Positions 16,852 through 48,927 of a DNA stretch of 64,000 nucleotides are shown here, in pieces. The stretch covers positions 2,170,001 through 2,234,000 of the forward strand of contig CM065887.1 of assembly GCA_033439255.1 (NCBI GenBank). Direction: 5' to 3'. Numbering within the stretch: the stretch's first letter is position 1; every line of letters starts with the position of its first letter. A program made the position numbers and the translations under genes. The notes under the pieces were generated by a model. It saw only the letters and a program-made list of their open reading frames with translations. It did no database searches and was not told the DNA's origin. The stretch comes from Hericium rajendrae. Its lineage: Eukaryota > Basidiomycota > Agaricomycetes > Russulales > Hericiaceae.

Positions 16852-16862
16852 AGTCAATGGTG

Positions 16863-17185
16863 TGACTTTCGCCGCAACCTACGGGCCAGACAAAAGTGGC
16901 CTAAGGCTGTAAGTTACGGGCTGGTCAAAGCCAGCTGGAATCACCGTTTTTGGTCCGTAAGCCACGAACCAGCTGGATTTGGGAATAGACCGTAGGTTAC
17001 GGGTCGGCTTGCATAGATATGTACCGCAGTCTACGGTGCAGCTCGGTCACCCATATTTAATGCCTCGCAAACTACGGCCCAGCTCAACTGGCCTCGTCCC
17101 TGTCCGGATTCACCAGCCCGGTCTCGGACCACTGCATGCACATTCGGACTCGGATTCGGACTCGGATTCGGACTTGTATTATTCG
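16863..17185 (+). repeat. Left inverted terminal repeat of the giant element
   Basis: Begins TGACTTTCGCCGCAAC and is the reverse complement of 48595-48917, with roughly six mismatches that I can count, all transitions. An outer CAAT followed by four variable bases precedes TGACTTTC on both ends. Inside are repeated dyads of the form CCGTAxxTTACGG, and at the inner edge TTCGGACTCGGA iterations. Confidence 0.9.
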
Positions 17186-17439
17186 GACTCGGATTCTCAC
17201 TTTACCGGACTCTTAGTTCACCGGATGACTGGATTACCGGTAATCCGGACTACCGGACTACCAGAGGGCTGAAACATCGGATTATTGGAGTACCGGATTC
17301 AAATTCCAATGCTTCAGCTCTTGACAAATTTCCGGACTGGGAATGAAAAAATAGATTCGGACTGGTACAGAAATTTGGAATACAGCAGATTCGGACTCAT
17401 GGACAGACACAAAAAGAATGCACAGATCAATGATATGAA
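17186..17439. repeat. Subterminal CCGGA/TCGGACTCGGA-rich region
   Basis: Short words CGGACTCGGATT, CCGGACT and ACCGGAT recur about every 10-20 bp from 17140 to 17300. The opposite end (48520-48640) shows ATCCGAGTCCGA words. Such subterminal arrays commonly serve as transposase contact sites; this role is inferred. Confidence 0.5.
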
Positions 17440-19060
17440 CTACTTATCTCCAACGTTGCTATCAGAGGATTCTCCCAATTCTGAGTCCGTCGAAAACTCG
17501 TCAGTAGGAAGGGGCATATGAGTGTTGACCCAGCTGAATTGGTCTGCGACTGTGTCAAACCGATGTTGGACCTCTTCAGACAGGTCATCATGGTCCTGCC
17601 GAAGAGTCGAGAGAGCGTCGGACAAACCAGGGACTTCACACTCTAAGTCGGCAACCTGTCGAGAGACATCGTCGAGCTTGTCCTCCAAATCCTTCATACC
17701 CTCCTTCAGCTCCTGTCTCATCACCGTCACACTCTGCTCCAGAGAAGCTATGCGATTGAGGATGACGTTGCCCTGCTCTGCAGCTAGGGAATACCGCTGA
17801 AGGCCTTTCTCCAATTGCATGGACACATGATCAACATTCTTATGCAGCCCTTTGATGTGCTGGTCAATGTCATGCAGCATATTCATGTTAACCAAGCCGG
17901 TTTGGCCATAAGAAGCTGCGACGTTGCCTCTTTCGTACCGGCTGAGCTCCGGAGTGGTCGTCCCTACGCTAGATGGACCAGGTGCCGACTGGCACTCCTG
18001 AGAAGCTCGGCTACCCGCACCAGTTCGGTCTTTGTCGGTCCGCGTCTGAAGTTGTACTAAAGATTGGGCCTTGGCCTGGATCCACACCATAGGTACATCT
18101 GAAACCGATGAGATCATGCAACGGAAATGATACATGAACTAACCTTTTCCCGGGGCGGTCTTCGGATCGATGTTGTCGTGCGGCAGAGAGCTCGGACTGC
18201 TAGCCCGGAGATAACGACTCTGGACGATTGGCCCGTGGAATGCTCTGCCAGTGATCGCACTGGGCGGCGGCGGTCGTTGGAGTGCAGGTTCACAATTCCG
18301 CCTCTTTGCCGGTACTATAGGCATCGTCGGCATTAACACGTCTCCACTCCCGATGACCTGCGGACTTCCTACACAACAGCTGTTAATGTGCAATACAAGA
18401 TTACTATGAGACAACACACCTTTGCGAGTTGATCCATTATCCTCATTGCCCAGCTTATCCTCCACTGCAATTAGGCCCTCCTTATCCCCATGCTGACGCT
18501 TGTCTGGAGCTGCAGGGCCTAAATCTGAAATCAGTGCAGAACAAGGAACATACAACAAAGTCATTACCTTGTCCTCCCTCCAACATTGTCGTCGGTCTGA
18601 TCCCTCCCCTCGACATCCGGAACCTCTCCATTGCCCGTAGGAGTGACTCTACAATGGTTCCATCAGGTGCTAGCATCACCCCACTGCCTCCACCATAACA
18701 AGTCTTGTACCACTCCGCAACCTTGATGAGCAAAGGGGGGAAACTCTCCAAGATGCATTTCCCACCTGAGGGACGGTCAATCCGAGTGCTAGCTTCGAGG
18801 CGCTTGACTTCTGCAATCGCCTTTTCGATGACGACCTGCGATGCGCGTCAGGGTGTACGTAGCTGGAAGATAGCATAGACACTTACTGCGTCACTGCAAA
18901 TGCGAGCGAGGCACCACGGCCTGTCTACCATCCCCGCATCTGCCACGTCGTCAAGATCTCTTCCAATCCGATATTCCATACTCTCAACAGTGGCCCAGAG
19001 AGTCGTCCAGTTGAACGTTACGCTTGTGGAAGAGCGAGAAGCGGTAGTGTGGCAGGGCAT
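17440..19060 (-). CDS. Cargo protein with long C-terminal coiled coil
   Basis: Five exons can be chained by clear GT-AG introns. Exon 1 (ATG tentatively at 19060) ends WCLARICSDA. Exon 2 carries VVIEKAIAEVKRLEAS and FPPLLIKVAEWYKT. Short exons follow, with GPAAPDKRQHGDKEG and a proline-rich PALQRPPPPS. The last exon, to the stop at 17440, starts VPMVWIQAKAQSL and ends in about 130 residues of heptad pattern (LEKGLQRYSLAAEQ, IASLEQSVTVMRQELKEGMK, LEDKLDDVSRQVADLE). It is divergent from the Zn-cluster family gene at 19474. The function is unknown; a coiled coil implies self-association or partner binding. No stop or frameshift was found in the chosen chain. Confidence 0.6.
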
Positions 19061-19473
19061 TGGACAAGGACATTCCGCACGATGGGCCTCCCTAACACTC
19101 ACAGACGACAGACCATGCATCGCAAAGTCATTCCATCTCCGACCGGGAGTTGCCGCATGCCACGGAATGCCTGCCCTTTGATTCGGGTTTGAGACAAAGT
19201 CAGTTTTGAGTCAGGTTAAGGTTAGATGACATAAGATCCAGATAACCGGGCTGGTCCGGCCGGACCGACTTGACTAGGACCGGACGGTCAGAACCGGATT
19301 ACATCAGCACGATGTGACATCATTTTTGTGACGATGAAACGCGCAACACGTGACAAACAAAGCAGCATCAAAGTCCGCGCTCGGTCTCCTTCCCTCCCCC
19401 CACATCATTGCCTTCCTCAGTCACTATTAACCTGCGGTCTCTGTTTTCAATCATCGCTCATCCTAGCTTTATC
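19061..19473. promoter_or_regulatory. Divergent promoter region with CCGG motifs
   Basis: This 413-bp gap separates two start codons. It holds GGTCCGGCCGGACCG and GACCGGACGGTC (19253-19290), both near-palindromic, plus TGTGACATCA and CACGTGAC. CCGGA words also occur in the subterminal regions of the element, so common binding by an element-encoded factor is possible but untested. Confidence 0.35.
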
Positions 19474-23100: not shown

Positions 23101-23128
23101 ACAATGCCCCGCACCCACGCACAACGAC

Positions 23129-23940: not shown

Positions 23941-24136
23941 TGAACTGGTCACCCCGCTGGCACTATGCGGGGGTCACCGGCAAGGCAACAGGGGTGAGCT
24001 CTTACTTGGAGGAATGCTCAATGTTTACATCATAAGTGAGAAGGGAGTTCCTTTCGGCGATGCGTGAATTAAAAATACATGTGGTAACCAAATTTCGTAA
24101 TTCGAGCCAGGCTCCCCCACAGGTTCCGCGCACCCT

Positions 24137-26120
24137 TCAATCCTCTCCTGTCAACGGAGACTGCAGATAGTCCCATTCTACATCTGCAAGGCTTCGCAGC
24201 TCCTCCACCTGGTTGATCGTGATTGTGCAATGCTTGATGACGAGAGTGAGCCGTGTCCCAAATGCCGCATAGCGATGGGACAGGGATTGCTTGAGAATGT
24301 AGCCAATGGCATAGGAAGGACGAGAAACCTCATATATGGACCACGGACTATCCCGAGGCCTGGGGTAACTTGTATTAAAATCGACTTCCATGAACTCGAT
24401 ACGTAATAGATTTCTGAAGAGGTGCGGGAACGAGTCTGGCATTGGGACCTCGTCGACTTCATCTGAGTCCAGGATTGTGATCGGCTCGACTTCATCTTCC
24501 TCCGGAGGAGGGGGCATAAAGGAGCGGGGTGCGGCTAAAGCCATACAGAGCGTACGGCCACTGTCGCCCTTCACCGCGATGGTTTCAATGCCGGTGTAGG
24601 CATGGAAACCAGAGAGCCAGTCGCGAAAAGTGATCTTCTCGATGATGTAATTGTCCCAGTGTTCCAAACCGTGGTCCTCTCCAAAGTCCAGAACAAGATG
24701 CCGTATCTGACGTTTGGTCTCTGTGCTTGGGACATGATTGAGGTCCTCTATCATGGGGCGCCTCTCTGGAGGTCTCTCATCGTCATACCCATCGGTATTG
24801 GCGTACACGACAACCGAGATGTTCGGGAGATCTGGGTCAAAGGTGGGATGGCCGGTGTGATCGGAGAAGGGAGGATATCCTGATAAGTAGATGTCCCAGG
24901 CTAGGTTATAAGAGATAAAACCGATGCGCATGCTCAGGGGATGGGGTGAGATGTGGCTATCAATGAATGTTGTGAGTGGGGCAAATTCGCCGGCCTGAGG
25001 GTGATCGCCGAGGATGAGGATATTGCAAGAGGGAGGTACAGTGATGTGCTTGATGACATGCGCCATGTGCAGGAATGATTTGTCCTGACATGTGAATTTT
25101 TGTAGAGAACCGAATGTGACCACAGGCACGACGGGAGGGGGGAGGGGAGAGGAGGGAAGCAGTGGGAGAGAAACAGCATTTGAAGGTTGGACATCTGACC
25201 GAGAGCTTCGAGCATCTCTCTAAAAGCGTTGACGCTGGGTGGAGCAACAGGAGGTGCCTCTTCAGATGCTACATAGTCCGATGGATGGTCGAAAATAATC
25301 TTGTGGTCAGGATCAATATTTAGCAGATCTGATCGGGTGGATTTATTATTAATGTGGAGATTGGTGAGACCACGTAGAATACTCCCGGACCACACCGGGA
25401 CGACGCAACGAAGCGTCATCTTACGTAGCAATGGAGCATGATTGTCGAAGAGGTCAGCGGGGAGCATATCGATACCTTGATAGGAGGACCATCTAGGGAG
25501 CGCATAAATCACCGATTCAATCATCGGGGCTGGATGGGCCATGGATGGCCAGAGGTTTTGCATGCTGCTGACAAAAAAGTTTTGGAGGGAAAGGTCGCGG
25601 ATGCGATGGATTGTTCTGGAGAGCAGCTCGACAGTATCCAAGGTAGGGGGGTTCCATCTGGTGTAGGTGATAGAATAAGAGAGGGGCAGAGACCGGGACC
25701 GGATGACCATTGCATTTCGCAATGGCGTACAGAGTCCGTCGCTGATGGTAGTCCAGAGGCTTGGATCCTCGAGTGCCCTGGATCTCAAAGTGCGGCAGAC
25801 ATGGGTGACATTGACCCACCCTAGGTCTTTGGGACCCGGCCGCTGGTTGGCAGCGAGAAAATGGACTATGCGCGTGCACACTTCGGTGGGGATGCAGATC
25901 AGGGGTGATAATCTGTTTCGCCGGGCACGAGCATCGAGGGTGAGGAGGAGTAGCTGGTTTAGCTCCTCGTCAATGGCAGCTCGCTGCTGTTCTATATCAA
26001 CTGGGTCAGGGTGTACAGGAATCCTGGAAGGGGATGCGAGTAGTCAGTAATCCAAACATTGATGGATGAAAGATCCCGCCGGACTTGCCTCAAGATCTGG
26101 AAACTTGATCCGGTCGACAT
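24137..26120 (-). CDS. F-box protein, copy 1, with frame break in a C-run
   Basis: Exon 1 (26120-26089) is tiny and ends at a GC-AG intron (donor GCAAGT, 26025-26088). Exon 2 encodes an N-terminal coil and an F-box-like segment, LSPLICIPTEVCTRIVHFLA, followed by DLGWVNVTHVCRTLRSRAL and WTTI, typical of basidiomycete F-box/LRR-type proteins that recruit substrates to SCF ubiquitin ligases. The body continues with HLHIN-like LTNLHINNKS, then a -1 shift is needed at the C6 run (25137-25142 on plus) to join SHCFPPLP to VVTFGSLQKFTCQ. The second half (to stop 24137) contains DSGRTLCMALAAP, FPHLFRNLLRIEF and SYAIGYILKQSL, all shared with the paralog at 42941-44902. The paralog needs the same shift at the same site. 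Confidence 0.7.
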
Positions 26121-30376: not shown

Positions 30377-33300
30377 CTATTGTGCCAATGCCTCTGCAAA
30401 TGCACTCTCTGCCTGATTGGCCATGCTAATCCAGAGTGCCATCTGTCTGGAGGCATAGCTTTGGTGCCCTGGATCTGTGTTGTTGGCCTTCCATTTTCCC
30501 CACCGTTCTGCCCTCTTGGTGAAGTAATTGATCGTTCGTGCCATCTCCCTTGGAAGGGCTTCCCGCTCCGCACGCCATTGCTTCATCTGGGCCCGAGACC
30601 GTAGCCAGTGAACACGATAAACTACAATTCTCCATCAGTGACAGGGATCATGTTGAATGCAGCAGACCGGACCCACATTCCATTGTCCATTTACTGTCAT
30701 TCTCGCCTTTCCGTCCCAGTCTCCAGAACCATGAAAGAGGTTCATTACGAGATCCCCGCATGCTTGAGTCAATGACAAATGTCTGCGCCCGTAAGTCCGA
30801 CCGGTGCAAGACCTTATAAGTCTTCAATGTGTCAGAATCTGCAAGCCCAAGGCTGTTTAGAGCACATCGTGCTCGGTTGTAGACACGGCACTGCTGTTGG
30901 ACAACCTTGTCCGTAGTCTCAATATCTGCCCAAGCCCTTGTCCGCTTTCGTTGTGATCCGCGGGCCGCCCGCACCTTCGTCCGGAACTGGAATGCCTTCT
31001 CGCTGAGAGCTATACGGAGCTGACTAAGCGCATCGTTCATTGCCCGATCCGAAGGTCAATTTCCTGTTCCAACACGCCGTGAAGTCCATGAGTAGTGGCC
31101 AGTGCCTTTCCCACAGTGGAGGGCAATGGAAGGGCAACGCGCTCTGGCGGAATTGCTGCATCGTCGTCGATGAGAGGTCTCGAATATTCAGTGCGGACGT
31201 CCTCCCATAGTTCATCGTATTCGGCGCCGTCATCGATCATCCGTCCGATAGTGAATCCGGGGATCCAATCCTCGCCTTCGGACATGTAAGGCAGACTCCG
31301 CCGTTCAAACTGATCAATTTGGGTCTGCAGCCGTCGTCGTCGTTCTGCGATGGTGTTCTGCTGGTTTAATGTAGCAGTTTTACCAACGCTTCGGACGTAT
31401 GCTGCCAGCTGTAGCCTAGCATGACCATTGGCTCCGTCAGAATAAAGGAATGGTAAATCGGACAACGCACTGAGCCTCTTCTATCTTGAGTCCCGAGTGA
31501 ATCCATGCAGCGCAACCACGAAGCCTGTCAGACTCCACTGCAGCCACAAGTCGGTTTTCCATTTCCGCTTTTCCTGGTACTGTCTATGACATTAGCAATT
31601 GTTCTCCAGGCTGAGGATGGCTGGGAGCATACGTCCGTCGATCTGCAGATCATATACGTCCATTGCTTTTATATCCCGTAAGCGGTTCTTCTGTGCAGTC
31701 TCTTCTATCTTCTTCCATCCATCATGGACGTCGTCAGGCACTGTGTGATCAAAATCTGCGAATGCTGTCTCAGCAATCTCGAGACCTGTTGCTGACTTCT
31801 TCCACTTCTTGCACAATGACTTCACTGCTCCCGACTTTCAGTACTGGTCAGGGAGCTCATACAATGATCGAAACATGCATACCGCTGTGTACAAGCTTCT
31901 TCCAATTTGAGTCATTCATGTGATCATCCAAAATCTCCCTCCTGTGAGAGATAGACATCCCTCTCGTACTTCGTGAGATCTCGTTCAAAGGAGCCCACAA
32001 TGTCTCCAATATCTCCCCATCCACCTGGCGTGCGCCCGGAATGAACGTTGGTGAAAACCGAGCGAGGCATTCTTGCCGGTGACCGTGGATGTGGAAAAGA
32101 CCAATACCGGATATAATTTCCATGTCCGGAGGTAGTTCCAAAAATTCGCTCCGGTCCACACGTGAGTAGAAATTGACAAACCACTGGCAAGCGATGTCAT
32201 ACAAGAGTCTCGCTGTAGTCAGACCTTGCGACTTGTACCCCAACCCTTGGCAGACGGAGTAATCCATATTGACTTGACTGCAGACTATCTGTCAGCACAA
32301 CATTATCTTTGTGGACTGACAGAGAGATACACCTACCGTTCACCCTTTTGAAAGTCCACTGTCGTGTGTGGTATAAATGCCCCATGCATGCAGGCAGCGG
32401 ACCCCAAACCGGATGAGTATAAATTACTCTTCCGGGCATTGGCTTGATTCACCGCGCGGTGGTCATTGCATGTGGATCGCTGTTGCAGGCAAAACGGTTA
32501 CCGACCACATAATGCAATATGCTACTTAGTTGCACCTCTTGCCTGACCTCCCGATTGCTGCGGAGATGTTGATGGTATCTTTTGCTCTCGACCATGAACC
32601 CGGTGCCATCGCTCAAAGCGAAATCGTTGTCCGGTCTTCTCATCTTCTCCAGCTGGGCAGTAAAGTTGCCATCCTGCATTTGTATACGTGCATCGAGGTC
32701 ACTGAAAACCAGCAGTCAACGAAGAGAACTGGATGGGAAATAATGGACTCACAGTCGGTCTTCAGGCAGCATGTTTTCTCCTGGTTGAGGACATGTGGGA
32801 CAGAATAATGCCAAGTCTCCATTTCCTGGCATGTCAGTGCGATGACCGAAACCATGCCATCGCATATACTGCAGGTGCCTCCATACCCGCAGAGACCGCA
32901 TAAGTTCCCGATAACGGTCCTATGAGAATGTGTTAGTGCCAATGAGAGAACTGTTAAGGCATGCAACGCAACAGGAACCGAATCCGGAAAGGCAGGGTTG
33001 GTTAGTCGACGGAGCTTTCCGAAGAACTGGAAAAATGAGGTTTTGCATTCAAGATTGTCCAAACGACAGTCTTCTAACACCTGGAATGTGAACGCAGTCT
33101 GGGGCCGACGGAATGATGCTGGAAATAGATTGCTCCGAAGGAGTTGACGGTGCAGTGGTTCATCAGTAGAGCAATAGCAGTTCACCACTCCTAATTCGTG
33201 CACTCCGGACCGATCAACAATGGTCAGGATATGATCCGGTGTATCTTCGCTAGCATGGAGCCTCTGACTCCGGGCCTGACGTTCAGCCTCCGCCAAGGTA

Positions 33301-35044: not shown

Positions 35045-36643
35045 TTACAATGAAAAAGGTAATGATGCGTGAGTCTGCGATGACTCGTCCGTTACGTCGG
35101 GTTCGGATGGGATGTTGAACTGACTGTCATTGCACCAGTCCGGTGCTTTGACGATCATGCGCTCGTGCACTGCATCTCTCATCCAAAATGCATAACACAC
35201 CCTGTCCGGTTCACATTCTGGGACTGCATGGATTACCATTTTTGAGCAGACCGCAGCTAGTGTCCCGGACCTGTATGCAAACCTCAGGTTGAGATTCTGG
35301 AGGTGCAGTTCTGCATCAGGATATGTGCCGATCGTCGCCAGGAGATCTGGCCATTCGGCGCGACCTCCCATATCTCTATGCGGCATGGTGGCCCGGTTAG
35401 AGATGATCGAGACACCACTAAATGCAGATGTCCAGTGGCACATCACTTCACGAAACTCCGGCATATCTCTGAGCCGTTCCAACGTGCATATGCCAGCCTC
35501 GTGTAATTCTGGGTATATGACCCCAAGAATTGCACTCATGATCGCGCCTGATTCCTGGAATGCTAGCAGCCATTCTTTTGCCCGCTGGGTCTTGAGGGAG
35601 ACAGACGTGTAGAGGGGAAAGTGAGTGTCCTACAGCGAAATCCAGGTACACACTGAATTCTACATCGACGATAGAAGGAAGGGTCTCATACCTCATGGCC
35701 GAGTGCAAACCATGCTGGGGACAAATCTACAAAGCCAGGATGCAAGGTGCAGACTACCGGATTATGATAAAGGTTTTGAGCATGACGAGTCAGAGACTTC
35801 ATGGCTTCGGACCTCGTTCCCTTGGACCTCGAGCCTGCTGCTTGCTTCGCGGACTTGACAATGCCCGATCCTGCTGGTCCTGGATTCGTCGGCCCATTCT
35901 TTCTGTAAATTTCAGTCCAGCTCCTTTGGAAGAGGGGCTCGAGGATCTTTGCAGCATTGAACATGATGGCCTGCACAAGCAATTGATCAACACAATGACG
36001 GGTGATGTCAAATGCGAGTTGCCACCTGTCGTTCCAGGGACAGCACACCTGGTAGGTACCACACCAGGTGATTGGTGTGTGTATCCGAGACCGTCATTGG
36101 GACATCAATCAGAGGCCACGAGGTATTGTTGGTACCCCAGGTTAGGCCCGGGTAACGCCGGTGTAGGGATGCTTCTGTCGGTGAGTTGAGTCCGGTGTAT
36201 TTCTTCGGAATGCGGCTGGCGTAACGCTGTGCATCCCAAGTCATCCGGACTGAAGTTACATCAGTTTTCAATCATCTCATTTTCAAATTGATACACATAC
36301 TACGGTTTAGAAAAGCAGCAACCAACTCCCGGGCAATATAATCCAGCTCGCAGCGCAGGCTGGATGACAGCATCCAGTATGGGATCGGGGCAGGATTGGC
36401 AAAGTCGACCTTCTGGTGGTTAGCCAAATAGCAATGAAACATGTGTTTCAGATAGATTGAGATTGCTTCGACTTCGGACATCTCACTTGGGGAATGAGCG
36501 GAAATGAGGATCAGCGCAGAAAGTAAGGCTGGTTGGTCGCGGTCTTTGATGTGGCAGAGGTTTGTCACCAAGCATTCGGCTATCCACATGTGCTTCGGCA
36601 GGAGATTGCCGGTGATGGATTCCTCATTCGGCCTGTACAGCAT
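35045..36643 (-). CDS. TET/JBP-family 5-methylcytosine dioxygenase
   Basis: A 2-oxoglutarate/Fe(II) dioxygenase of the TET/JBP family, which oxidises 5-methylcytosine or thymine in DNA. Four exons chain with good introns. The N-terminal part (from ATG 36643) is helical and conserved in the fungal branch. The middle carries MFNAAKILEPLFQRSW. The last exon contains SWTSAFSG-like HWTSAFSGVSIISNR, then the iron ligands in MPHRDMGG (HxD), the strand LLATIGTYPDAEL, LRFAYRSGTLAAV, the distal His in VIHAVPE, and the 2OG-binding Arg in DRVCYAFWMRDAVHER. All key residues are present. It lies just upstream of the KDZ gene on the same strand (157 bp between its stop and the KDZ start). This linkage is known for basidiomycete KDZ elements and suggests a role in relieving methylation-based silencing of the element. 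Confidence 0.85.
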
Positions 36644-36815
36644 TGGACAAAGATCGGATCATATTGGTTACCTTTGAAGACCGTATGTCTGAGGACGTAC
36701 ATGAAAAAAAAAAAAAAAGTCAGTCCATGTCGTTCCGCTGCACTATAATCCATTTGCTGATCAGTTTGCCTTCTTCCGCCCCTTCCCTCAGTTCGCCCCT
36801 CCTACTTTCAATTTA
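36644..36815. promoter_or_regulatory. Divergent promoter with poly-A tract
   Basis: The TET/JBP gene (minus) and the gene at 36816 (plus) start 172 bp apart. The interval contains an uninterrupted poly-A run (36703-36718), a nucleosome-excluding feature common in fungal promoters, and a pyrimidine-rich stretch before the plus-strand ATG. Co-regulation of the two genes is likely by position. Confidence 0.5.
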
Positions 36816-39649
36816 ATGCCGAGAGGTCCCCTTCCACAGAAAAAGTCCAAGTCTGTCAAGACTGATCTGTCGGAGGACGAGATTGACTTTCTCAAAACAC
36901 AGTTGAAGGCCTTTAAGGAGACCGGGAAGGCTGGACGACGTCGTATCATTACGGACCTCAAGGCACCTGGTGGTCAATTCTTTGGCCGTTTTTCATACAG
37001 GGGTCTTGAGTTGACCAGGGTCCAGCGGGTATGCCTGCATCTGTTGATGAGCTGTTGCTGCTAACTCACTTTCGCTATATAGTTGATACACGAGTGGCTG
37101 CTAAAACATGGCAGGCACCGGCTTCGGAAGGCGGACTCATTTAAGTATGTCCGAACATGGACACTCAAGGCCGTAGTCCAGCACATGGAACGCGATGCCA
37201 TCATGGAGCATGCCAAAGTACTATCTGGTGGTGCGCAGCCTGGAAGCAAAGCCCACATTGCGATCTACTCCCGGGCAGTGAGTCAGGTGATGAACAACCT
37301 TACTCCGGACAAGATGACCCAATATGAGGAGTATGCTGCATTGTGGACAAAGACGGAGGCTCCTCCTGATGTGCAGGCCAGGTCCGTACTGTTGCTGTAT
37401 GTCCAGTATCTGTCCTCATGTCGTCTCTATGCAGACAAGCATCTAAGCATGCTGGCGAGTACACCAAGTCGTTCGCCACACAAATGCGGTCACATCTTGG
37501 GATGTCCGTAGTGGTCCTGGGGACATGGCTAGACGAAGAGGGGACGGCGGTGGTCCGGAAGTATGATCTAACCTTTTCCATAGTCGAGTGATATTGAATG
37601 AATCCAGGTTCGATTACAACGGTGACCTCGGACGGCCAACCCTCGCAGAAGCAGTGAAGGACTGGGATGAGCAGCCAATGATGTCGGCCTGGACATCCTA
37701 TGCCGAAGCTCTATATGGTATGCAGAATTTCATGCTTTGGTCTGCGGTGCTGACTCCAGAAGGTCCCGGGGATGATTCCAATGAACCGGGCCACGCAGTC
37801 AAGAAGTCCAGGAAACCAACTCTACAGTTGATCTACAATCCAGACGGAGGTGTTACAATACCTGCGGATTTCGAAGAATACACGCCAGATTTGTTGATAT
37901 CGCTGATAAGGGAGTTTCTAACCTTTCATTACGGTGTGTATTTTCTGTGATGAACATGCTTGGCCCGGCTAATGCATTAATTCATCAGCACGCGCCAATC
38001 CGAAGGCATCGGCAATTCCCTGGGCGAAGATAAAAGCTGACGGCTTCGAGAACTACATTGACCCGATGTACCTTCCTACGGGATACGTTTGGGAAGATCC
38101 ATCACGCATTAATAGGCAGGAACTCAAACCCATCATCGAATTCTGGCAGAACCGGGAGTCCGATGGCCTCACTGTATTAGAGTTCAAGGCGGTCGTCGTG
38201 AAGGGCGAGTGGACCCCTGTGATGGAGATTCCATCCGACAGCGAGGGCAACACCGGGGGAGGAAAGACTGTCCGGATTCGTCGACGGAAGGAAATTCAAG
38301 CGCGGTTTGCAGACCGGGATGTGCCCAACCCTCAGGATGTCTCGGACGCGGAAGCTGAGAAGGATGTCGAGATGGTTGGCATTCCCTCGGGTCGCAAAAA
38401 TGCTCGGACAAAGGATCATAATGGTTACGACGAACATGGAGAGTTTTTCGACCTGGGCTCTTTCGGATCTGAAGAGGAGGATGTGGATGATGTCGAAGAC
38501 GTTACGCCATTGGAAACCAGTCTACGAGTGACAAATGCTGGGAAAGCTAAGGCTTTGCAACAGCTTAGGGAACGGCGTGCGGGGACCATGCCTTCGAACA
38601 ATAAGTCCAAAAACAAGGCTCGGATTGATCCACAAGTCGGTCTGGACTCAGATGGCAGTCCGCTGAAAACACCAGGAAACTCGGCAAAAAATGAAAAAGC
38701 CAAGTTTGCCTTCCTCAGCGGTCTTTCTGGACTGCAGTTGTATCAAGACCTCGTGCTGGAGATCTCATTGTGCAGGGTACGCTGTCCCAAAATATATGTC
38801 ATGTTGGTTATTTGATCATACCTTCAGCAGGGACATCGCACTACAGCAGACCCAGACCATCCTGACTGGGCTACATTTGACTATCCAAGGCCATGGTTGC
38901 CGCGCCGTGTTCATGCCAATGTGAATCCCAAGTCTGAGATACAGTGGCTATTGGACCCCAAGACGCCTTGGCGTAATTGCGATGGAGACATCTTGAGCAA
39001 ACCAGCACTGATGGAGGTGGCCTTGGCGTATGGGCAACTGCTCCGGGATCTTGAAACTGCACAGATGGGTGCATCGGACTCTGATGATGAAAGTCGGCCT
39101 GATGCAGGGGTCCCGGACTATGTTCAGAACTCTACAATTCCGTTCCGTTACCTCGGAAAGTATGTTGAACCGCAATGCATTACCATGAAGGAGGATCTAG
39201 AGAATGCTCGCACAGCATACTCTGAAACCACTGGAAAGAATATGTTGCCTGCAGCTGCACCATCTGCTGGTCCCAGCAAGAGAATTCGCAAACAGGCTCT
39301 GCCTGCTCGGGCTCAGATCGAGAAGAGGGGAAAGGTACAATCACCATCGGATGCCCCAGCTGCACCTGAGAAGCAAAAGTCACAGCATCAGTCGTCCCGG
39401 GCTGCACCCCCTCCAGCCGCCTTGTCTGAAGCCCTGCTTGGCTCTCCCAGCAAGCGGAGCGGCCGCACACGGGTGCCCACTAAGAAGATGGCAATGTGAG
39501 TATGCCATGTCATTGACTGGTGGAAATTCGAAAATCATTGTTGTCGTAGGATCATTCCAGAGCAGACGGCCCAACGGGAAAAGAATGCCGCTGCTTACAA
39601 GAAGAGACAGGAGACTGCGGAGAAAAAGAAGGCTGCTGCACGTCGGTGA
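36816..39649 (+). CDS. Large unknown protein divergent from TET/JBP
   Basis: ATG 36816 opens MPRGPLPQKKSKSVKTDLSE, then DEIDFLKTQLKAFKETGKAG. Further exons: LIHEWLLKHGRHRLRK, AIYSRAVSQVMNNLTPDKM, FDYNGDLGRPTLAEAV, LQLIYNPDGGVTIPADF, and a long exon with IPWAKIKADGFENYIDPMY, LPTGYVWEDPSRINRQEL and an acidic low-complexity region around 38420-38510. The last parts hold IPFRYLGKYVEPQ, a basic serine/proline linker and a lysine-rich end (TAQREKNAAAYKKRQETAEK) after an intron at 39499-39549. The protein would be about 850 residues. I know of no characterised domain. Its conserved place opposite TET/JBP and near KDZ suggests an element-linked accessory function. No stop or frame break was seen in the chain. 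Confidence 0.65.
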
Positions 39650-41350: not shown

Positions 41351-41408
41351 GTTGTCTGCCTCGTGTCGTCTACGTCATGCTTATTCGCCGTGTATAGGCT
41401 AGAATTGG

Positions 41409-41530
41409 TCTATGTGGCGCTTGTTCGCCGTGCATTTAGGCGACAACTGTTCTATGTGGCGCTTGTTCGCCGTGTATAGGCGACAACTGTTCTATGTGGC
41501 GCTTGTTCGCCGTGTGTAGGCGACAACTGT
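41409..41530 (+). repeat. Tandem repeat of about 40-42 bp, three units
   Basis: The unit starts TCTATGTGGCGCTTGTTCGC and ends GGCGACAACTGT. Copies begin at 41409, 41451 and 41491, and a diverged partial unit precedes them. It lies just beyond the truncated end of the LINE fragment. Confidence 0.8.
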
Positions 41531-41806
41531 TCATGTGTTCTCGCTCAGGACAACTGGTCCCATGTAGACGTTTCACGTTGAAGATCATTGCCGTCTGGGC
41601 TGTTGGTCCGGGCGGATTTCCAACACCTTTGCACCCTTCTTCCTGCAAGCTGCAGACGGACATTCCGGGTGTCGACCTCAAGTCATTTCGCAGTCGCCTG
41701 CTCGTGAGTAGTATAAATATGTCCCTGTTCCTCCTCTTTCTCTTCACTGCTATCTCTTCCACCCGCTGCTTCCCGTCTCCCAACCCACTCGCTCTTCGTG
41801 CTGATC

Positions 41807-42662
41807 ATGCCATCTCTTTCTCCCTTTTCCTCGCCATCTGCAACTGCCCACACTGCTCACACCGGGATCCGACGTTCACCTTCATTCGAGCGGATGCGCG
41901 AGCAACTTTCTCAGATGGAACAAGCAGTTGCCATCGCCTCTCGCCAAGTACACCGTCTTCGCGAACAGTGTGGCAAAATGAAAGAAATCCTTGGCACTGT
42001 CATCCACAACTTCTACGACGCGCAAGACAGGATTGACATCCTCCATCTTCTCATCCGTGACCGACGTCATGGCCTAGCTCAGAATTCCGGTCAGTCTCTC
42101 CTCTGCATTTCCCTTCCCTTACCATGTTCAACCACCCCCTCCAGACCTCCCTCGTCACAACATGCCTCCGGGAACCCCGTCCGCCCGATCCTTTCCACCA
42201 CAAGACCGCGTGGAATATTGGTTATACCTCTACACAACGTATCCGCATCTCGCACCGGCTGGCATTTCCGGTCTCGATAATACCGTAACACCGCATCTCG
42301 TTCGCGCATGGCGATTCGGCATAGAGACGGGGCCGGATGAGGGGGACGAAGGGGATGGGGTGCTCGAGATGATTTGGATGATGGAGCTGGCCAGCATTTT
42401 CTCGGTCGCTGGGTTATTCGCCCAGATCGAAGTTGCGATGACTCGTCCGCGACCGCGGTCTGACTTTGGCTTTCCCCGTCCTTATCCCGGGGACTGTGGT
42501 CACATCACCCCTCCCCAAGTCGTCGACCACCTACTTCGATGTGGCATCAACGACAACCTCATTGCCGGTCTCGAGGAGATATTCATTTCCCGAGCGAGAT
42601 CCTTTCCAACTGAGCCCACGACGATCCCGCCGGATGCACCGGATGCCGAGGATGTCATGTAG
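41807..42662 (+). CDS. Hypothetical cargo protein with N-terminal coiled coil
   Basis: Exon 1 (41807-42089) starts MPSLSPFSSPSATAHTA and contains a heptad-rich helix, MREQLSQMEQAVAIASRQVH to IHNFYDAQDRIDIL. The intron (42090-42144) has donor GTCAGT and acceptor CCTCCAG. Exon 2 runs to TAG at 42660-42662 with DRVEYWLYLYTTYPHLAP, RAWRFGIETG, EMIWMMELASIFSVAGLFA and CGHITPPQVVDHLLRCGIN. Similar two-exon proteins (short coil plus a Trp/Tyr-rich domain) are typical of mushroom accessory regions, but I cannot name the family. No defects seen. Confidence 0.6.
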
Positions 42663-42940
42663 GGTCCATCCATCGCGGCGCAGGCTCCACGTGGCTTTCA
42701 GAGGATCCTCATTATTAGATACGCATCGTGTTTTGATGCACGCCTTGTTTTGATGCCCGCCTGTTTGCTTGTTATTGATTCTCTAGGTCCGCAACTGTCA
42801 GCCCTGTCATGTCGATGTAACGTAGTGTGACTGTTATTCTCCCTTGTGTGTAAGCCGGACACTTCGTGTACTTAGTCCTCCTCCACTCAATTCCCATTTC
42901 TCTCTTCGTTACCAAATATCTGTGCGTTGAAAAGAACACC

Positions 42941-44902
42941 ATGTCTGACGGTACAATGCAAGTCTGCTCTCGATCCATTGTCCATGAATGGTAGTGTCTC
43001 ACATCCCTGTTACAGGATCCCCACGCACACCGACCCGCATGATATCGAGCGAGAGCGACGTCGGCTGGACAAATTAATAAAAAATGTAGATGGAGAGCTC
43101 GTTGCTGTCCGCGCCTGTGGCAACGACCCGCATGGCATGGGGGACGTCATCCGAAGACTGAGGACGGACCGCACTGCCATCTGCACCAAGCGAAATACAC
43201 TATCACCTCTTGCCTGCATCCCCATTGAATTGCAAAATCGTATCTTGCACTTCTGCGCTGCTAACGAGCCAGCATCCATGAAAGGCCTGGGGTGGCTTCA
43301 CATCACGCATACCTGCACCTTTCTCCGAGTCGCCGCATTACAGGATGGCAGCCTGTGGACAAATATTTGCACGGGATTATCTCAGCCCTGGAGAGAAGCC
43401 CTGGTGGAACGCTCCCACTCACTGCCCCTGTCCTACAGGGATGTATATTGGAGGCATAACATCCCCACCCCGCATACCGTTGCACTCCTGGCGCAATGCA
43501 TGCGTCGCATCCGCCATCTTTCCCTTGTCAACTTTATCTCAGGTTCCTTCAACCTGATTCGATCCCTGGTCCATCCGGCGCCGATCTTGGAATCGGTATT
43601 TCTTGCAGTCCGGTTACGGAGCGGCCGTGTGGGTATCCTCCCCGCAGACCTCTTTGAAGAGCAAGCGCCTTCGCTCTGCATGATGACGCTACATTACCTT
43701 GTCCCGACATGGTCCGCATCATTCATGCGCAACCTCACCAAATTGCACATAAATAATCACTTCACGTCAATTTCCGACGTTATGAACATTGATTCTGAAC
43801 ATGATGGCATTCCCTACGCTGAATCCGAGCATGAGCCACCCCCTGCTGCTGGTCCATCCCCCGAGAAGGCCTTTCTCGATCTCATCCTTGCTTTATCGCA
43901 AATGTATGCACTAGAGACATTGTTCATGTCTCACTGCTTCCCTTCCCAGCCTGACCCCCTCCGGACGTGCCCATGGTCCAACTGACTCGTCTCCGTCACT
44001 TCACATGTGAATCAAACTCATTCCTCCACATCGGCAATGTCATCCAGCATGTCCACATACCTCCCTTATGCGATGTCTTCATCCTAGGCTATGCCCCTGA
44101 GGTGGACGATTTTTCCACCGTGACCCATTTTCTCAATAACCATGTTGCACCTTATCCTATGACGATGCGAGTCAAGCCTGTCTCGTCATCTGAGTCCTGG
44201 GACCTGTCTTTCTGGGCCGATGTCCCTCTCCCTCAAGACACGGACTATCCCCCTGGCAGTGCAGATATCCCGTGCGCACGTGTGGTCGCCCATGTCGCCC
44301 ACGGGAGGTCTGAGGGAGTATTGCACAGGCACCTCCTCGAGCCCTTGGACCATTGTCCAAGCCCAGAGACTAAGGTCTCCATCCGACACCTGATCGTGGA
44401 GTCCGGCAAGGATCACGGTTTAAACTGGGCCCGCAAGTCCGGCCACGAGAACCTGCAGTCGAGCAACTGGATCTCCCATTTTGCCAGTTACACCAATATT
44501 CACACTGTATCCGTCAAGGGCGACGTTGGCCGCACATTATGCATGGCACTTGCTGCCCCCTGCTCGTACATGCCGAAGCTAGAGCACGATGAAGTCCAAG
44601 AAACGATACCCCCGGACTTCCCGCATCTCTTCAGAAATGTCACCCAAATCCATTTTTCAGAAGTGGATTTTGACACTGAGCATCCGAGGATTGAAAACCG
44701 TGAATTCTTTGCCCCTCGTCCTTCTTACGCTGTTGGCTACATTCTCAAGCAATCCCTGGCCTATCGCCATGCAGCGCTTGGGACACGGCTCACTCTCGTT
44801 ATGCAGAACTGTGCAATCACAGTCAGCCAGGTGGAGGCCTTGCGAACCCTTGCGGATGTGGAATGGGACTCTGTGCAGTCTCCGTTGACAGCAGAGGATT
44901 AG
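42941..44902 (+). CDS. F-box protein, copy 2, with frame break in a C-run
   Basis: Exon 1 is only 17 nt (42941-42957, M-S-D-G-T-) and joins by a GC-AG intron (42958-43015, donor GCAAGT) to IPTHTDPHDIERERRR, as in the paralog at 24137-26120. The F-box-like segment is LSPLACIPIELQNRILHFCA, followed by LGWLHITHTCTFLRV and WTNI. Leucine-rich strands follow (HLSLVNFISGSFN, LTKLHINNH). At the C5 run (43955-43959) the frame must slip -1 to link SHCFPSQPDP to VPMVQLTRLRHFTC. The second half shares DVGRTLCMALAAP, FPHLFRNVTQIHF and SYAVGYILKQSL with copy 1 and ends QSPLTAED. SCF substrate adaptors are the known role of F-box proteins. A frame starting at 42927 would need a TTG start, so I used the ATG at 42941. 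Confidence 0.7.
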
Positions 44903-45681: not shown

Positions 45682-46154
45682 CTACTGCTCTTCATAGAAA
45701 AGCTCCGAGGTTTTCTGTAATTGAATATGGAGCTCGATGAGCTCCCGCAATTCCTCCGTCTTCCACGCAATCAAGCGACGCAAAACGCCAATTTCTTCTA
45801 ATCGGCTCGGTCTGCTCAGTTGAGTCCGGTGTGAAGGGTAGGCGCTCACCGGTCAGGACCTGGTGCTGCCAGGCCTTCCTGTCCGGTTCTGACGGAAGGG
45901 TCAATGTCGACGTAATACGGAGCCACTGTACCAATGATGAAGATGCGGCTCTATAGCGTAATGATGAAACTTGCCTCAGGTGGGGTGATATCAGAATCAT
46001 TCCGGCTCGAGGACAGAAAAGATGAATTCTGTCCAGGCTGATGGGACTCGGTTGAGACATGGTTCCGGCGGTTTGGCGACTGGCGCGAAGCAAGGGTGGA
46101 GTCCTGTACATGCAACACAAGGAGGCAGGAGCAATGGAGTCCAAAAAGAGACAT
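45682..46154 (-). CDS. Small cargo protein with C-terminal heptad segment
   Basis: Three exons: ATG 46154 with QPGQNSSFLSSSRNDSDITP, a middle exon WLRITSTLTLPSEPDRKAWQ, and a last exon EIGVLRRLIAWKTEELREL followed by IELHIQLQK ending at TAG 45682-45684. The first intron is again of GC-AG type (donor GCAAGT at about 45978) and the second has GTGAGC-AG. It is divergent from the Zn-cluster gene at 46454 and resembles in size, place and C-terminal helix the gene at 27133-28047. Function unknown; the helix suggests dimerisation with itself or with the divergent partner. Confidence 0.5.
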
Positions 46155-46453
46155 GTTTAAGTGGACTAATAGTGACAGGTTTACAAGTGCATTCTAACCT
46201 TGTTCAGGACTGTTTGTTTTGTGGTATTGTCAGACATATTGTTTTGAGAGGACAAGAACAGGACAAGCAGACGGGACCCAGTAAAGGCGTTCTCGGTCTG
46301 CATGGAGGTGTCGCCAATATGTTGTCACAGTCACGCATCACGGTCACCTCGGATCGCCCATCCAGCGGCTATTGCCGGATGCTGTGTCTGCCAGCACAGT
46401 TGTACTGTTCCCCCTCCCACGCTCACTTCGTTGACATTGTTCGCCCACCCGGT

Positions 46454-48312
46454 ATGACTACTACTTCAGAACTCCTCGGCAACCTTCAATTGCACGAGGC
46501 CCGTGTGGGGTGTGCCCTGGTCGCTTTGAAGAAGGCCATTGAGATTCAGCCGATGTCGAACAAGCGCCGGGAGTGGTGGCACCGCCGATTGTTGAAAGAA
46601 TGTGTAAGTTCTGTTCTAGCTTTTAGCTTGTACATTTAGCTTACTGGGGTCATGTTGTTAGGACACAGCGTCTTGCATCATTCAAATGCTCAAAGGGATG
46701 GACAAGAACAAGACATTTGCATTACCCCCGCTGATCCAGAGTGTTGGCAGGAATTTGGTTGGTCTCATAAGGGCGAAGAGATTGTTGGATCCGAAGACCT
46801 TCGCGGGCACGGTGGACTCCTTTTCGGAGGGGAGGGATGATTGGTCGAAGTGTGTGGGGAGAATTCCATTGTCAGAGCGTTGGTGGGTTTCAGAAGATTT
46901 GGATCACAACACAACCGTGCCCTCCCCCTCCCCCCCAGTCCCGGGAACATCACGTGGGGCCACAGAACGCCTTCCTACCGAGTCTGTGCGGTCTGCTGAG
47001 TCCGTTGACGGTGGAAAGACACCTGCTGCGTCAACCAGCAGACCGATCCGACCCCCTGCTGTACAATCCGCGGGACATGCCATCTTAGCAACGACTGAAA
47101 TGGCCGTTAAGCCTGTCGGTTTCACATCTGCACCCCATCCGGCACCACTAAGCACTACTCAGAGCGCAACAACTGATGATCCTCTGGAGAGAAACGAGCA
47201 GAGGCCATCCGGATCTTCGATCACATTTACAGAAGACCGCCGCATCCCAGCCCAGATTCCCTCTGGAGCTCCAACGACCCTGGCCCTGACTGCGCCGGCT
47301 CCACCAGTCCAGTCCGGCCTCCAAGTCGCACATAATGAACAGCTCGATGTGGTTATGGCAGGCAGTCCGGGGGATCAGGAACTGGACCGACCCCATCACG
47401 CCGAAGCGGAGAGCTCTCCGGACGTGCAGGATCCTCCTGCAGGTAACGGAGCGGGAAAGAAGGGTAAAGGGAGTCCTATGCCCGATGGGCCCCCAGACGA
47501 CCTACCTGTAGTGGTAAGCATATCTGCCTTTCTCTTGTTTGTTCCTGCATGCTAAAGTCTTCATTCAGTCCCCACCTTGTTCCCCCTGTAGTCGAAAGGG
47601 TACTCGATGCGTACGGTCTGAAAATTCGAATGGAGCATGCTGGTGGTGTTGGAAACGCCGGGCTAAGTGTCCCTTGGCAGGTGGGCGGGGCAAGACCCGT
47701 AGAACAGGCAAGAGAGGTTCCGACGGAGAAGGCGGGGAGCGGGAAGCCGGGGAGCAAGCGGCAGAACGAGCTACCAACGTCTCGGGACGGAAACGTAAAG
47801 GTAATCCACTCCATCGCTGAGAGTATGGGGGCTCATTAACCATATTTCTAGGCCCTCCGAAGTCTGCGGAATATGTTGTCACGGACGACGATGGAGCAGA
47901 ACCAATTCCTGCTGCACCTCCTGTGGGGAAGAAACCCCGCACGCTGCCCCCACATCACCCGGACCGAGAGGGTAGTCCGTCTGCAGCTAGAGGATTGCCA
48001 GGCGCCAAGAACAGCTCTAATAGTCGTGTCACTCTGACCAGTGATGTGAGCTTGCACTCAATTCGGGACCTCGCACAACGCTCATGGTCAACGGCGCAGT
48101 CTCTCCAAAGCCAGGTTGATGACCTCAAGGAGGAAGTGTGCAAGCTCCGAGGGCTCATCAAGACTCACGCACGTGACAACAGTTTGGGGCAGCAGCGCCT
48201 GGAGGAGGACTACGTTGTGCTGCAGGGCCAGATGCGAAACCTCCAGGTGGACCAGAACACGTTGAAGGACCAGGTGGCACACGTCACAAGGATCCAGGTC
48301 GAGAGTGCGTAG
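46454..48312 (+). CDS. Element-specific family protein, member 4, Zn2Cys6-like cluster and coiled coil
   Basis: Exon 1 starts MTTTSELLGNLQLHEARVG and ends RRLLKEC at a GTAAGT donor (46603). Exon 2 (about 46663-47514) contains DKNKTFALPPLIQSVGRNL, PLSERWWVSED (the RWW site shared with 19474 and 28531) and a long Ser/Pro-rich disordered stretch. Exon 3 holds CSPCSRKGTRC ... CWWCWKRRAKC, a C-x2-C-x6-C-x9-C-x2-C-x6-C cluster identical in spacing to that at 28531. The last exon has an acidic linker and a C-terminal coiled coil (LQSQVDDLKEEVCKLRGLIK onward). The layout Zn cluster plus coil is that of fungal Zn2Cys6 transcription factors, though the cluster lies centrally here. It sits next to the right terminal repeat. 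No defects seen. Confidence 0.7.
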
Positions 48313-48519
48313 TCACAGTCAGTTCCTCATTATTTACATTTTATTTAGTCAGGCATGGATTCTCGTGCGCGTTTATCAGTAGTTCCCTTCATCGTGTGGA
48401 TAGTCCGGCTGAGAAAGTAGTAGTCCGCAGACAATACAATTGTATTCTGATTCTCGTATACCGGTCCATTGCACGCTGAAACCGGTTGGCCCAAGTCCGT
48501 TGAGTGAATCCGAATCTGC

Positions 48520-48594
48520 CGCCAGATTTGAGCATAATCCGAGGCCTAAGGATCTGAGAATCTGAAATTCCGAGTCCGAATCCGAACCCTAGTC
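48520..48594. repeat. Right subterminal CCGAGTCCGAAT array
   Basis: Words CCGAGTCCGAATCCGAA recur here and into the terminal repeat, in inverted orientation to the array at 17140-17300. Confidence 0.5.
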
Positions 48595-48917
48595 CGAATA
48601 ATATAAGTCCGAATCCGAGTCCGAGTCCGAGTCCGAATGTGCATGCAGTGGTCCGAGACCGGGCTGGTGAATCCGGACAGGGACGAGGCCAGTTGAGCTG
48701 GGCCGTAGTTTGCGAGGCATTAAATATGGGTGACCGAGCTGCACCGTAAACTGCGGTACATATCTATGCAAGCCGACCCGTAACCTACGGTCTATTCCCA
48801 AATCCAGCTGGTTCGTGGCTTACGGACCAAAAACGGTGATTCCAGCTGGCTTTGACCAGTCCGTAACTTACGGCCTTAGGCCACTTTTGTCTGGCCCGTA
48901 AGTTGCGGCGAAAGTCA
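48595..48917 (-). repeat. Right inverted terminal repeat of the giant element
   Basis: Reverse complement of 16863-17185 with only about six visible substitutions and no indel over most of its length. It ends GGCGAAAGTCA, then ATGTATTG, then the flanking repeat. Confidence 0.9.
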
Positions 48918-48927
48918 ATGTATTGTG

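Follow-up and report, generated by a model that had tools for sequence, protein, structure and literature searches.

The three KDZ transposons of Cryptococcus neoformans, KDZ1, KDZ2 and KDZ3, have experimentally shown mobility and measure about 11, 9.2 and 10 kb, with terminal inverted repeats (TIRs) of 241, 139 and 169 bp and target-site duplications of 8 bp (KDZ1) or 4–8 bp (KDZ2 and KDZ3), according to the sections of PMC12810828 considered here. In the portions of Kojima 2025 (PMC12730594) covered, TET-bearing Kyakuja elements of Agaricomycotina combine a KDZ transposase with 7-bp duplications, 5'-CA..TG-3' termini and an AG-type TET/JBP dioxygenase (with the positions equivalent to CcTET H326, D328, G331 and D337); two Laccaria Kyakuja families are described there without TIRs, a descriptive trait, the Kyakuja clade being defined by its transposase. 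Among giant elements, Starships carry a tyrosine recombinase captain (DUF3435) and variable cargo, and eight of 42–606 kb are reported from the basidiomycete Tremella fuciformis (PMC13066641, in part). Polintons/Mavericks and Teratorn are giant TIR-bearing eukaryotic DNA elements, and the terms KDZ and Zisupton are absent from the main text of a review of them (PMC6431247). No giant KDZ element was found in the open-licence PMC literature; an earlier mention is possible in Iyer et al. 2014.

The window analysed here is a stretch of 64,000 nucleotides from Hericium rajendrae contig CM065887.1. Positions 16851–48929 (32,079 bp) are very probably a single copy of a cut-and-paste KDZ transposon of 32 kb that was active recently, is closest to Kyakuja and is about three times as long as the KDZ relatives with a published size (9–11 kb in the source sections cited). 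The sequence itself shows the ends with their duplications and empty sites, the many copies with a core common to those compared, the protein domains and the CpG-type decay.

Ends, target-site duplications and empty sites

An inverted-repeat search gave arms at 16863–17196 and 48584–48917 (334 nt each, 98% complementary, spacing 31,387 nt), and the tips were shifted 12 bp outward per side by copy-to-copy comparison (Table 1). The long inverted ends of ~323 bp described in the initial annotation are real and were extended to 346 bp. Left and right TIRs were identical at 332/346 positions (6/12 in the outermost 12 bp and 326/334 in the remainder). This asymmetry of the tips was the same in all ends read (15 left and 17 right), all of which had sharp boundaries and 5'-CA..TG-3' termini. 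Every ACG on the + strand of the TIR was taken with its context as a 14-mer; all six contexts were alike, the third least so (starts 16878, 16913, 16961, 16996, 17030 and 17071), and these are candidate transposase-binding sites. CGGACT hexamers occurred 10 times in the first kb of the element versus 0.09–0.16 times per kb of the window outside it, with a maximum of 2 across 1000 mononucleotide shuffles of that kb; on the reverse strand, ten fell in the 1-kb bin 47851–48850.

Exact 7-bp duplications flanked 12 of 14 left-right pairs; one further pair agreed at 6/7 positions (E8) and one had none (E12). Mismatched left-right combinations never shared a duplication (0/241). Flanks joined across a single duplication matched unoccupied paralogous sites for the window copy and three others, and a clean empty site (continuous match, one duplication) was obtained for at least 4 of 11 joined flanks; among the others, three matched their own flanks only and one gave a broken match. 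Empty sites were located at C15:857838 (87%) and C11:1165279 (84%) for the window copy, at three places (80–81%) for E2, and, among the matches listed, at 12 places (93–95%) for E10 and 28 places (93–100%) for E11. Five were checked base by base; GTGTGAG was single in one (L049) and single with one mismatch in another (L050). Missing from these sites are precisely the 32 kb and one of the two duplication copies; they are paralogous places in one genome, as distinct from orthologous sites of another strain. The initial annotation had proposed a single giant KDZ transposon whose ends can be defined and which has a target duplication, to be checked by an empty site; both ends and duplication were confirmed, and the empty sites were of this paralogous kind. 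Misassembly was rejected, since flanks and duplication are particular to each copy and unoccupied sites are present.

The reported insertion into a host GH95 gene also holds: two parts of the gene lie on the same strand in the expected order on either side of the element, the left half being a weak match, below the cut-off.

Table 1. Coordinates of the element and its surroundings in the window.
Feature	Position	Strand	Basis or detail
Host GH95 gene, later part	15893..16219	-	left of element; PF22124 positions 293-356, 15.8 bits, E 0.007, below cut-off
Left target-site duplication	16844..16850		GTGTGAG, 7 bp; identical to 48930-48936
Left TIR	16851..17196	+	346 bp, tip CAGTCAATGGTG; inverted-repeat search, tip by copy comparison
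Six related 14-mers	16878..17084	+	like CTACGGGCCAGC; inside left TIR
Left subterminal array	17145..17397	+	ten CGGACT hexamers; motif count
Left coiled-coil-like ORF	17443..18138	-	232 aa, reads outward; coiled-coil matches sub-cut-off only
F-box gene A	24140..26043	-	two overlapping ORFs; F-box-like domain in 5' ORF
Transposase C-terminal exon(s), probable	to 31046	-	coding score only
Transposase gene	31046..34517	-	CxC2 exon 32643-34517, KDZ catalytic exon 31860-32291; limits approximate
TET/JBP dioxygenase	35048..36658	-	domain 35048-35629; possible N-terminal exon 36275-36658 (coding score only)
ORF3	36705..39496	+	pieces 36705-37061, 37973-38812, 38816-39496, joining inferred; divergent from TET/JBP
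ORF4	41717..42659	+	overlapping frames 41717-42277, 42078-42659; coding score
Gene B, inverted paralogue of gene A	42876..44899	+	protein alignment with gene A
Right ORFs	46662..48309	+	46662-47552 and coiled-coil-like 47821-48309; read outward
Right subterminal array	48402..48635	-	nine CGGACT sites, mirrors left; motif count
Right TIR	48584..48929	-	346 bp, tip CACACAATACAT (inward reading); same basis as left
Right target-site duplication	48930..48936		GTGTGAG; identical to left one
Host GH95 gene, earlier part	49255..49749	-	right of element; PF22124 positions 94-122, 27.0 bits, at cut-off

Copies, shared core and decay

Across the genome (46.77 Mb) there are 16 occurrences of the left end and 17 of the right, a copy number far above chance expectation. 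The initial annotation had suggested a search for further copies sharing both ends, and this same genome holds 14 left-right pairs. The core was compared among the window copy, E2, E3, E4 and the fetched portion of E5. Alignments with the window copy covered 32,079 bp (E2 and E4), 32,008 bp (E3) and 19,325 bp (E5, in part), with the shared core in blocks of 99.2–99.8% identity. Extra length in the compared copies was made up of nine nested insertions, mostly other transposons. By its coordinates, copy E6 (C8:678803–710886) spans 32,084 bp. The central 9 kb was present at no fewer than 18 loci (20 of 42 candidates scored). With a common core in the compared copies and nested insertions as the source of their extra length, the genes of the element look like a fixed complement and not like cargo swapped in the manner of Starships.

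Single-copy changes were C>T or G>A in 249 of 271 cases, 212 of those 249 at CpG; since most differences between copies are C>T changes at CpG, methylation is suggested. In three older relic pieces, CpG transitions made up 177/245, 93/173 and 284/440 of the differences, and the remaining differences in these three pieces had no clear codon-position bias and gave no sign of purifying selection.

Genes of the element

Of 330 stop-to-stop ORFs (≥55 aa), 49 were scanned against Pfam, a set from which short exons could escape. Four families were above the cut-off: CxC2 (PF18803; 4.5e-24, 85.1 bits against a cut-off of 27), the KDZ catalytic domain (PF18758; 1.4e-26, 94 bits against 26.6), Tet_JBP (1.8e-18) and F-box-like (in gene A; 2e-05, 24.7 bits against 24.3). 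The TET/JBP protein also matched CcTET in the PDB (7vpn, 1.1e-18) and is of the AG type, with the positions of CcTET H326, D328, G331 and D337 kept. PDB searches with F-box gene A and the CxC2 ORF gave no matches. The initial annotation was right on the CxC2-KDZ transposase and TET/JBP; its "roughly ten other genes" are plausible and unproven, F-box-like alone having passed the Pfam cut-off besides these three domains, and for several ORFs the evidence of coding is weak.

Genes A and B share 53% and 49% amino acid identity in two parts. Their differences are fewest at codon position 2 and most at position 3, with position 1 also below 3; among the comparisons made, only this pair had a codon-position bias. 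No Pfam match was obtained for gene B (F-box included), ORF3 or ORF4. The 280-aa piece of ORF3 had no PDB match and gave 19 matches at 17 loci in the genome, all of them copies of the 32-kb element. The right ORF at 47821–48309 had only sub-cut-off Pfam matches, mostly coiled-coil. The left and right coiled-coil ORFs were considered as a duplicated pair and rejected, their alignment scores lying inside the shuffled range.

Related short elements

Relatives of 2.1–2.3 kb share a 193-bp tip at 89–90% and have a 7-bp duplication; they are too short for the transposase gene of the 32-kb element, yet have moved. A 27.3-kb unit with an exact 7-bp duplication (C9:540451–567743) was considered as a second giant family and interpreted instead as a short element enlarged by nested insertions. 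Comparison of 10 kb of it with the window gave no similarity at E 1e-5, or at E 1e-4 for protein, and its TET match was below the cut-off. Some of the ORFs in those 10 kb look like a transposase of the Plavaka type and a Gypsy retrotransposon.

Classification and alternative explanations

The element is a giant variant of the known KDZ superfamily, its transposase having both the KDZ catalytic domain and a Zn-chelating CxC domain (CxC2). It appears closest to Kyakuja, a placement made by termini, duplication length and TET type as distinct from a transposase tree. It shares the duplication length, termini, KDZ transposase and TET/JBP positions of TET-bearing Kyakuja (PMC12730594, in part), and is filed as Kyakuja-type, not as proven Kyakuja. 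The "new class" of the initial annotation was too strong a term, since transposase domain, TET type, duplication and termini agree with Kyakuja-type elements. Unusual are its size, its long inverted repeats (346 bp, in contrast to the two Laccaria families), its 2.1–2.3-kb tip-sharing relatives and its paired F-box-type genes; the covered portions of PMC12730594 gave neither a mention of F-box genes nor element lengths for Kyakuja. KDZ1–3 of C. neoformans are alike in their long TIRs and in a KDZ transposase that includes a cysteine cluster, but carry CxC1, whereas the H. rajendrae element has CxC2, a 7-bp duplication and a larger size (sections of PMC12810828).

A genuine 32-kb unit mobilised in trans by a different KDZ transposase of the genome, the internal one being a passenger or inactive, is the strongest of the alternatives and still unlikely. 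The genome holds at least 172 KDZ domain matches (150 of 223 candidates scored), the short relatives moved though too short for this transposase gene, and two differences among E2–E5 introduce a stop into the CxC2 ORF. Against this, the KDZ domain was found by position in 17 copies and also in an older one, the central region that includes it recurs at 18 or more loci, and none of the 49 scanned ORFs had another transposase domain.

A Starship-like carrier, that is, a giant element swapping host genes, is very improbable. Size and gene number fit, the paired F-box-type genes are possibly host-captured, and Starships are reported from one basidiomycete (T. fuciformis; parts of PMC13066641). Such elements, though likewise giant, mobile, fungal and rich in genes, carry a DUF3435 captain; no copy of the present element has a DUF3435 match, both matches in the genome lying at C1:2.71–2.74 Mb, and a KDZ transposase and long inverted ends are found instead. 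The likeness to Starship cargo drawn in the initial annotation was not upheld, the core being the same in four compared copies (one partial), with extra length from nested insertions.

Size and the presence of several genes would also suit a virus-derived giant of the Polinton or Teratorn type, which we regard as hardly credible: the 49 of 330 ORFs scanned contained no viral polymerase (protein-primed PolB), capsid, packaging ATPase or integrase above the cut-off, in difference from the elements reviewed in PMC6431247 (as covered), and the 7-bp duplication and KDZ/TET pair fit KDZ transposons (PMC12730594, in part). Two separate small elements, raised in the initial annotation as what might undo its reading and taken here to flank a duplicated 32-kb host segment, are the least probable of all: there are indeed short elements whose tips are related (such as the 2.1–2.3-kb family), but distant left and right ends are joined by exact duplications in 12 of 14 pairs, the left-right tip asymmetry is constant, and the empty sites match the joined flanks.

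Proposed mechanism and significance

Under the preferred reading, a single 32-kb KDZ transposon, the KDZ/CxC2 transposase is presumed active and would bind the motifs repeated within the long inverted ends, together with the mirrored arrays of CGGACT, excise the whole 32 kb and reinsert it through a cut staggered by 7 bp. The TET/JBP protein may oxidise 5-methylcytosine on the element's own DNA and so counter silencing by CpG methylation. The two F-box-type genes and the ORFs without assigned role would travel as a fixed complement, and the F-box-type proteins might, as a guess, target host silencing factors; these accessory roles, like the transposase activity, are predicted from sequence. 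A broader proposal, offered as doubtful, is that mushroom-forming fungi harbour a lineage of giant KDZ transposons whose accessory genes together act as a fixed module against silencing, TET/JBP erasing CpG methylation and two F-box adaptors degrading silencing proteins. If true, such a module would allow an element as large as 32 kb to multiply to more than a dozen near-identical copies.

The exact ends, duplications and empty sites provide boundaries usable for searching other genomes. The short relatives suggest that the cis-acting part is the outer 193 bp, and with them a two-component assay is practical. Since the element encodes a TET/JBP enzyme and its own copies nevertheless show CpG decay, it offers a natural test of whether enzymes of this kind shield transposons from methylation. 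A 32-kb KDZ element with a dozen exact duplications suggests that units of very large size can be moved by a KDZ transposase system, with neither viral genes nor a tyrosine recombinase.

Ends and boundaries of the element

The window corresponds to C10:2170001-2234000, and probes from the element were searched against the 46.77-Mb genome (19 contigs, C-numbers). The inverted repeat of the initial annotation was re-found independently, with 334-nt arms of 98% complementarity. A left-end probe gave at least 41 matches (40 of 64 candidates scored). End counts were taken from probes private to each side, yielding 16 full left ends (18/18 candidates scored) and, on the right, 17 full ends (19/19); two older-form right ends at ~92% and some fragments came in addition. 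Tips were placed where similarity stopped among lined-up ends. Fifteen of the 16 left ends were read, including those of copies E6 and E7 and of C5, and all 15 started CAGTCAATGGTG; right ends, read inward, started CACACAATACAT in 17/17. The long inverted repeat started inward of 12-bp tips at both ends. Because the copies' ends share these sharp tips, the element was delimited to 32,079 bp. Left and right ends of the window copy were identical at 332/346 terminal positions. The left ends of E2-E4 agreed with the window left end at 343-344/346 positions, and left and right ends within one copy (E1-E4) agreed at 326-328/334; left/right differences are thus a family trait.

Coordinates of the element, its genes and related loci (window positions unless a contig is named; L-numbers, loci)
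Feature	Position	Remark
Element	16851-48929
Inverted repeat arms	16863-17196 / 48584-48917
Gene A	24140-26043	F-box match
Gene B	42876-44899	inverted paralogue of gene A
ORF3	36705-39496	divergent from TET/JBP gene
Internal ORF, minus strand	40915-41409
ORFs outside element, minus strand	57309-61072
Repeat families left of element	3634-5568 and 9302-11223	77-82% identical
Relic L072	30588-37073	96%
Relic L073	46742-48659	89-92%
Relic L074	43193-48885	91-94%
C16 pair, right end (L047)	C16:833523	same strand as left end
C16 pair, left end (L045)	C16:923448
E12	C3:2331932-2374324
Unoccupied sites, window copy	C15:857838-858154; C11:1165279-1165585	87%; 84%
Short relatives (examples)	C6:2230651-2232863; C5:1679474-1681619
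C9 pair (L054, L063, L070, L071)	C9:540451-567743	27.3 kb
DUF3435 matches	C1:2713819-2714385; C1:2737506-2738063	23 kb apart

Target duplications and unoccupied sites

Ends were combined into 14 left-right pairs (E1-E14): in 13 the two ends face each other at distances of 32-84 kb, and in the remaining pair, on C16, they lie on the same strand. An exact 7-bp target duplication was present in 12/14 (GTGTGAG at the window copy); E8 matched at 6/7 (one C/T difference), and E12, the sole pair without a duplication (2/7 positions agreeing), may have arisen when two copies recombined. Among 241 mismatched left-right combinations, none matched exactly over 7 bp and none at 6/7. Since both C16 ends share GTATATT, they appear to be a single element divided by a large inversion, with the breakpoint between window positions 33522 and 34199, within the CxC2 ORF. 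Right ends without a full partner lay on C1, C2 and C14, each 15-40 kb from a contig end, and on C14 a left-end fragment ran up to the contig end; the other partnerless ends were both left ends, one on C5 and an older one on C10.

Empty-site queries (150 bp from each flank, one duplication kept) were built for 14 pairs and 11 were searched; in a second search 40 of 111 candidates were scored, and E7, E8 and E9 fell outside the scored set. Joined flanks matched an unoccupied place continuously for at least 4/11: the window copy, E2 (three places, 80-81%), E10 (at least 12, 93-95%) and E11 (at least 28, 93-100%). For E3, E5 and E6 the genome search returned their own flanks only and no unoccupied site, and the E4 query matched C15 in two pieces ~10 kb apart, with the break 32-38 bp off the junction, as well as a third place at 73%. 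For five empty sites the sequence spanning the junction was fetched and read, with identities of 279/321 and 258/309 (window copy), 243/301 (E2), 284/298 (E10) and 299/300 (E11); one base of the duplication differed at the E2 site and at the second of the window copy's sites. The empty site that the initial annotation proposed to seek in other strains and related species was found in paralogous places within this genome, not in another strain.

The GH95 catalytic profile was matched at positions 94-122 by the right flank of the window copy (at cut-off) and at positions 293-356 by its left flank (below cut-off), on the same strand and in the right order; from these matches the target appears to be a GH95 gene. 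Left of the element, three repeat families recur at nearly equal spacing (5655-5668 bp), which suggests an old duplication.

Genes inside the element

Stop-to-stop ORFs of at least 55 aa numbered 330, and 49 were scanned against Pfam; four families exceeded the curated cut-off among these, namely CxC2 and KDZ (transposase gene), Tet_JBP, and F-box-like (24.7 bits, cut-off 24.3). Genes A and B could be compared in two parts, at 53% and 49% identity; differences at codon positions 1/2/3 numbered 112/89/159 and 127/81/151, and this bias argues that both encode proteins once under constraint. A 280-aa part of ORF3 matched 19 times, at 17 loci that are without exception copies of the element (31/31 candidates scored). 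Coiled-coil-like ORFs lay near both element ends. A codon-usage scan, whose training set was partly these same regions, supported the listed gene regions. The internal minus-strand ORF gave no Pfam match; it probably resembles a LINE-type reverse transcriptase tail and may stem from an old insertion that became fixed here. The ORFs outside the element presumably resemble another Plavaka or KDZ-type transposase.

The TET/JBP domain matched the solved Coprinopsis enzyme CcTET (7vpn, 1.1e-18), and counterparts of H326, D328, G331 and D337 were kept in the alignment. In Kojima 2025 (PMC12730594), H326 and D328 are ion-binding, G331 and D337 are linked with substrate recognition, and the D337 position is conserved in AG-type enzymes of Kyakuja. 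The genome held 46 Tet_JBP matches, 38 above cut-off; by position, 17 are assigned to the family's own gene and two to older copies. From its TET type the host would be a mushroom-forming fungus.

Shared core and insertions

E2 and E4 aligned with the window copy along all 32,079 bp, E3 along 32,008 bp (it lacks 71 bp) and E5, in the part fetched, along 19,325 bp, in blocks of 99.2-99.8% identity. All nine interruptions in the compared copies were insertions. Four carried 423-821-bp direct terminal repeats (99.5-100% identity), like LTR retrotransposons; three had CATC..GATG-like termini, resembling the CATCA..TGATG given for PlavakaB in Kojima 2025 (PMC12730594); one was a 574-bp MITE-like insertion with inverted ends and one (2.7 kb) was unclassified. 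E6, 32,084 bp long by coordinates, is therefore probably free of such insertions. A 9-kb central probe matched at least 18 loci (20 of 42 candidates scored), and the older relic pieces L072-L074 keep parts of the layout. Given the common core and the relic layout, the gene load seems to be a stable feature of the family, as judged from E2-E4, part of E5 and the relics. In place of the Starship-like cargo of the initial annotation, the compared copies have a common core, and extra length consists of insertions.

End motifs and short relatives

The inverted repeat holds six related 14-mers, 34-48 bp apart. Ten copies of CGGACT stand on one strand within the element's first kb, and another ten on the opposite strand within the 1-kb bin 47851-48850. 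Outside the element the hexamer occurred at 0.09-0.16 per kb, and when the first kb was shuffled by mononucleotide 1000 times, no shuffle held more than 2. These repeated motifs are candidate transposase-binding sites. A second element set has a tip 89-90% identical to the giant's initial 193 bp (40 of 66 candidates scored), including at least 10 pairs 2.1-2.3 kb long by coordinates (short relatives, L055-L062 and L064-L069). Eight second-set pairs (seven short and the C9 pair) were read at both ends; tips were the same as the giant's, with its left/right asymmetry, and the 7-bp duplication was exact in 6/8 and matched at 6/7 in 2/8. The 2.1-2.3-kb elements are probably non-autonomous relatives of the giant and point to the outer 193 bp as the region that likely acts in cis. 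The C9 pair has the tips of this set and an exact duplication; judged from 10 kb of its interior, it looks like a short element into which other transposons have inserted, and it gave a TET match below cut-off.

Copy divergence

Single-copy differences among five copies (E1-E5, E5 in part) were polarised by majority. C>T or G>A changes made up 249 of 271, 212 of the 249 at CpG (3.7-fold enrichment), with 27-97 changes per copy. Such a pattern is consistent with deamination at methylated CpG and with a recent spread. CpG C>T decay predominates among copy differences even in an element that has its own TET/JBP gene.

Classification and proposed mechanism

The element agrees with TET+ Kyakuja transposons in its KDZ domain, CxC2, CcTET-like TET, 7-bp duplications and CA..TG termini. 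It has long inverted repeats, whereas two Laccaria Kyakuja families are described without TIRs in Kojima 2025 (PMC12730594), and it is unlike Cryptococcus KDZ1-3 in size and duplication length, these being given as about 9-11 kb with 139-241-bp inverted repeats and 8-bp or 4-8-bp duplications (PMC12810828). Starship identity was rejected because both genome matches to DUF3435, the captain family, sit at C1:2.71-2.74 Mb. Giant elements as such are already known in basidiomycetes, from Starships reported in Tremella fuciformis (PMC13066641). The element is a variant of known KDZ transposons; no giant KDZ element was found in the open-licence literature searched, the founding KDZ paper and the supplementary tables of Kojima 2025 (which possibly hold lengths) aside.

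At least 172 KDZ matches were found in the genome, any of which might supply a transposase moving the element in trans; we regard this, the chief competing reading, as improbable. A giant KDZ element moved by its own transposase is, taken as a whole, very probably the correct explanation, with interiors judged from the window copy, E2-E4 and part of E5. The encoded transposase would most likely bind the repeated end motifs, excise the whole 32 kb and insert it at a 7-bp staggered cut. Cut-and-paste elements gain copies by transposing during replication or by donor repair, and copy number here would rise in the same way. TET/JBP would probably counter methylation and, as a guess, the F-box-type genes may act against host silencing.
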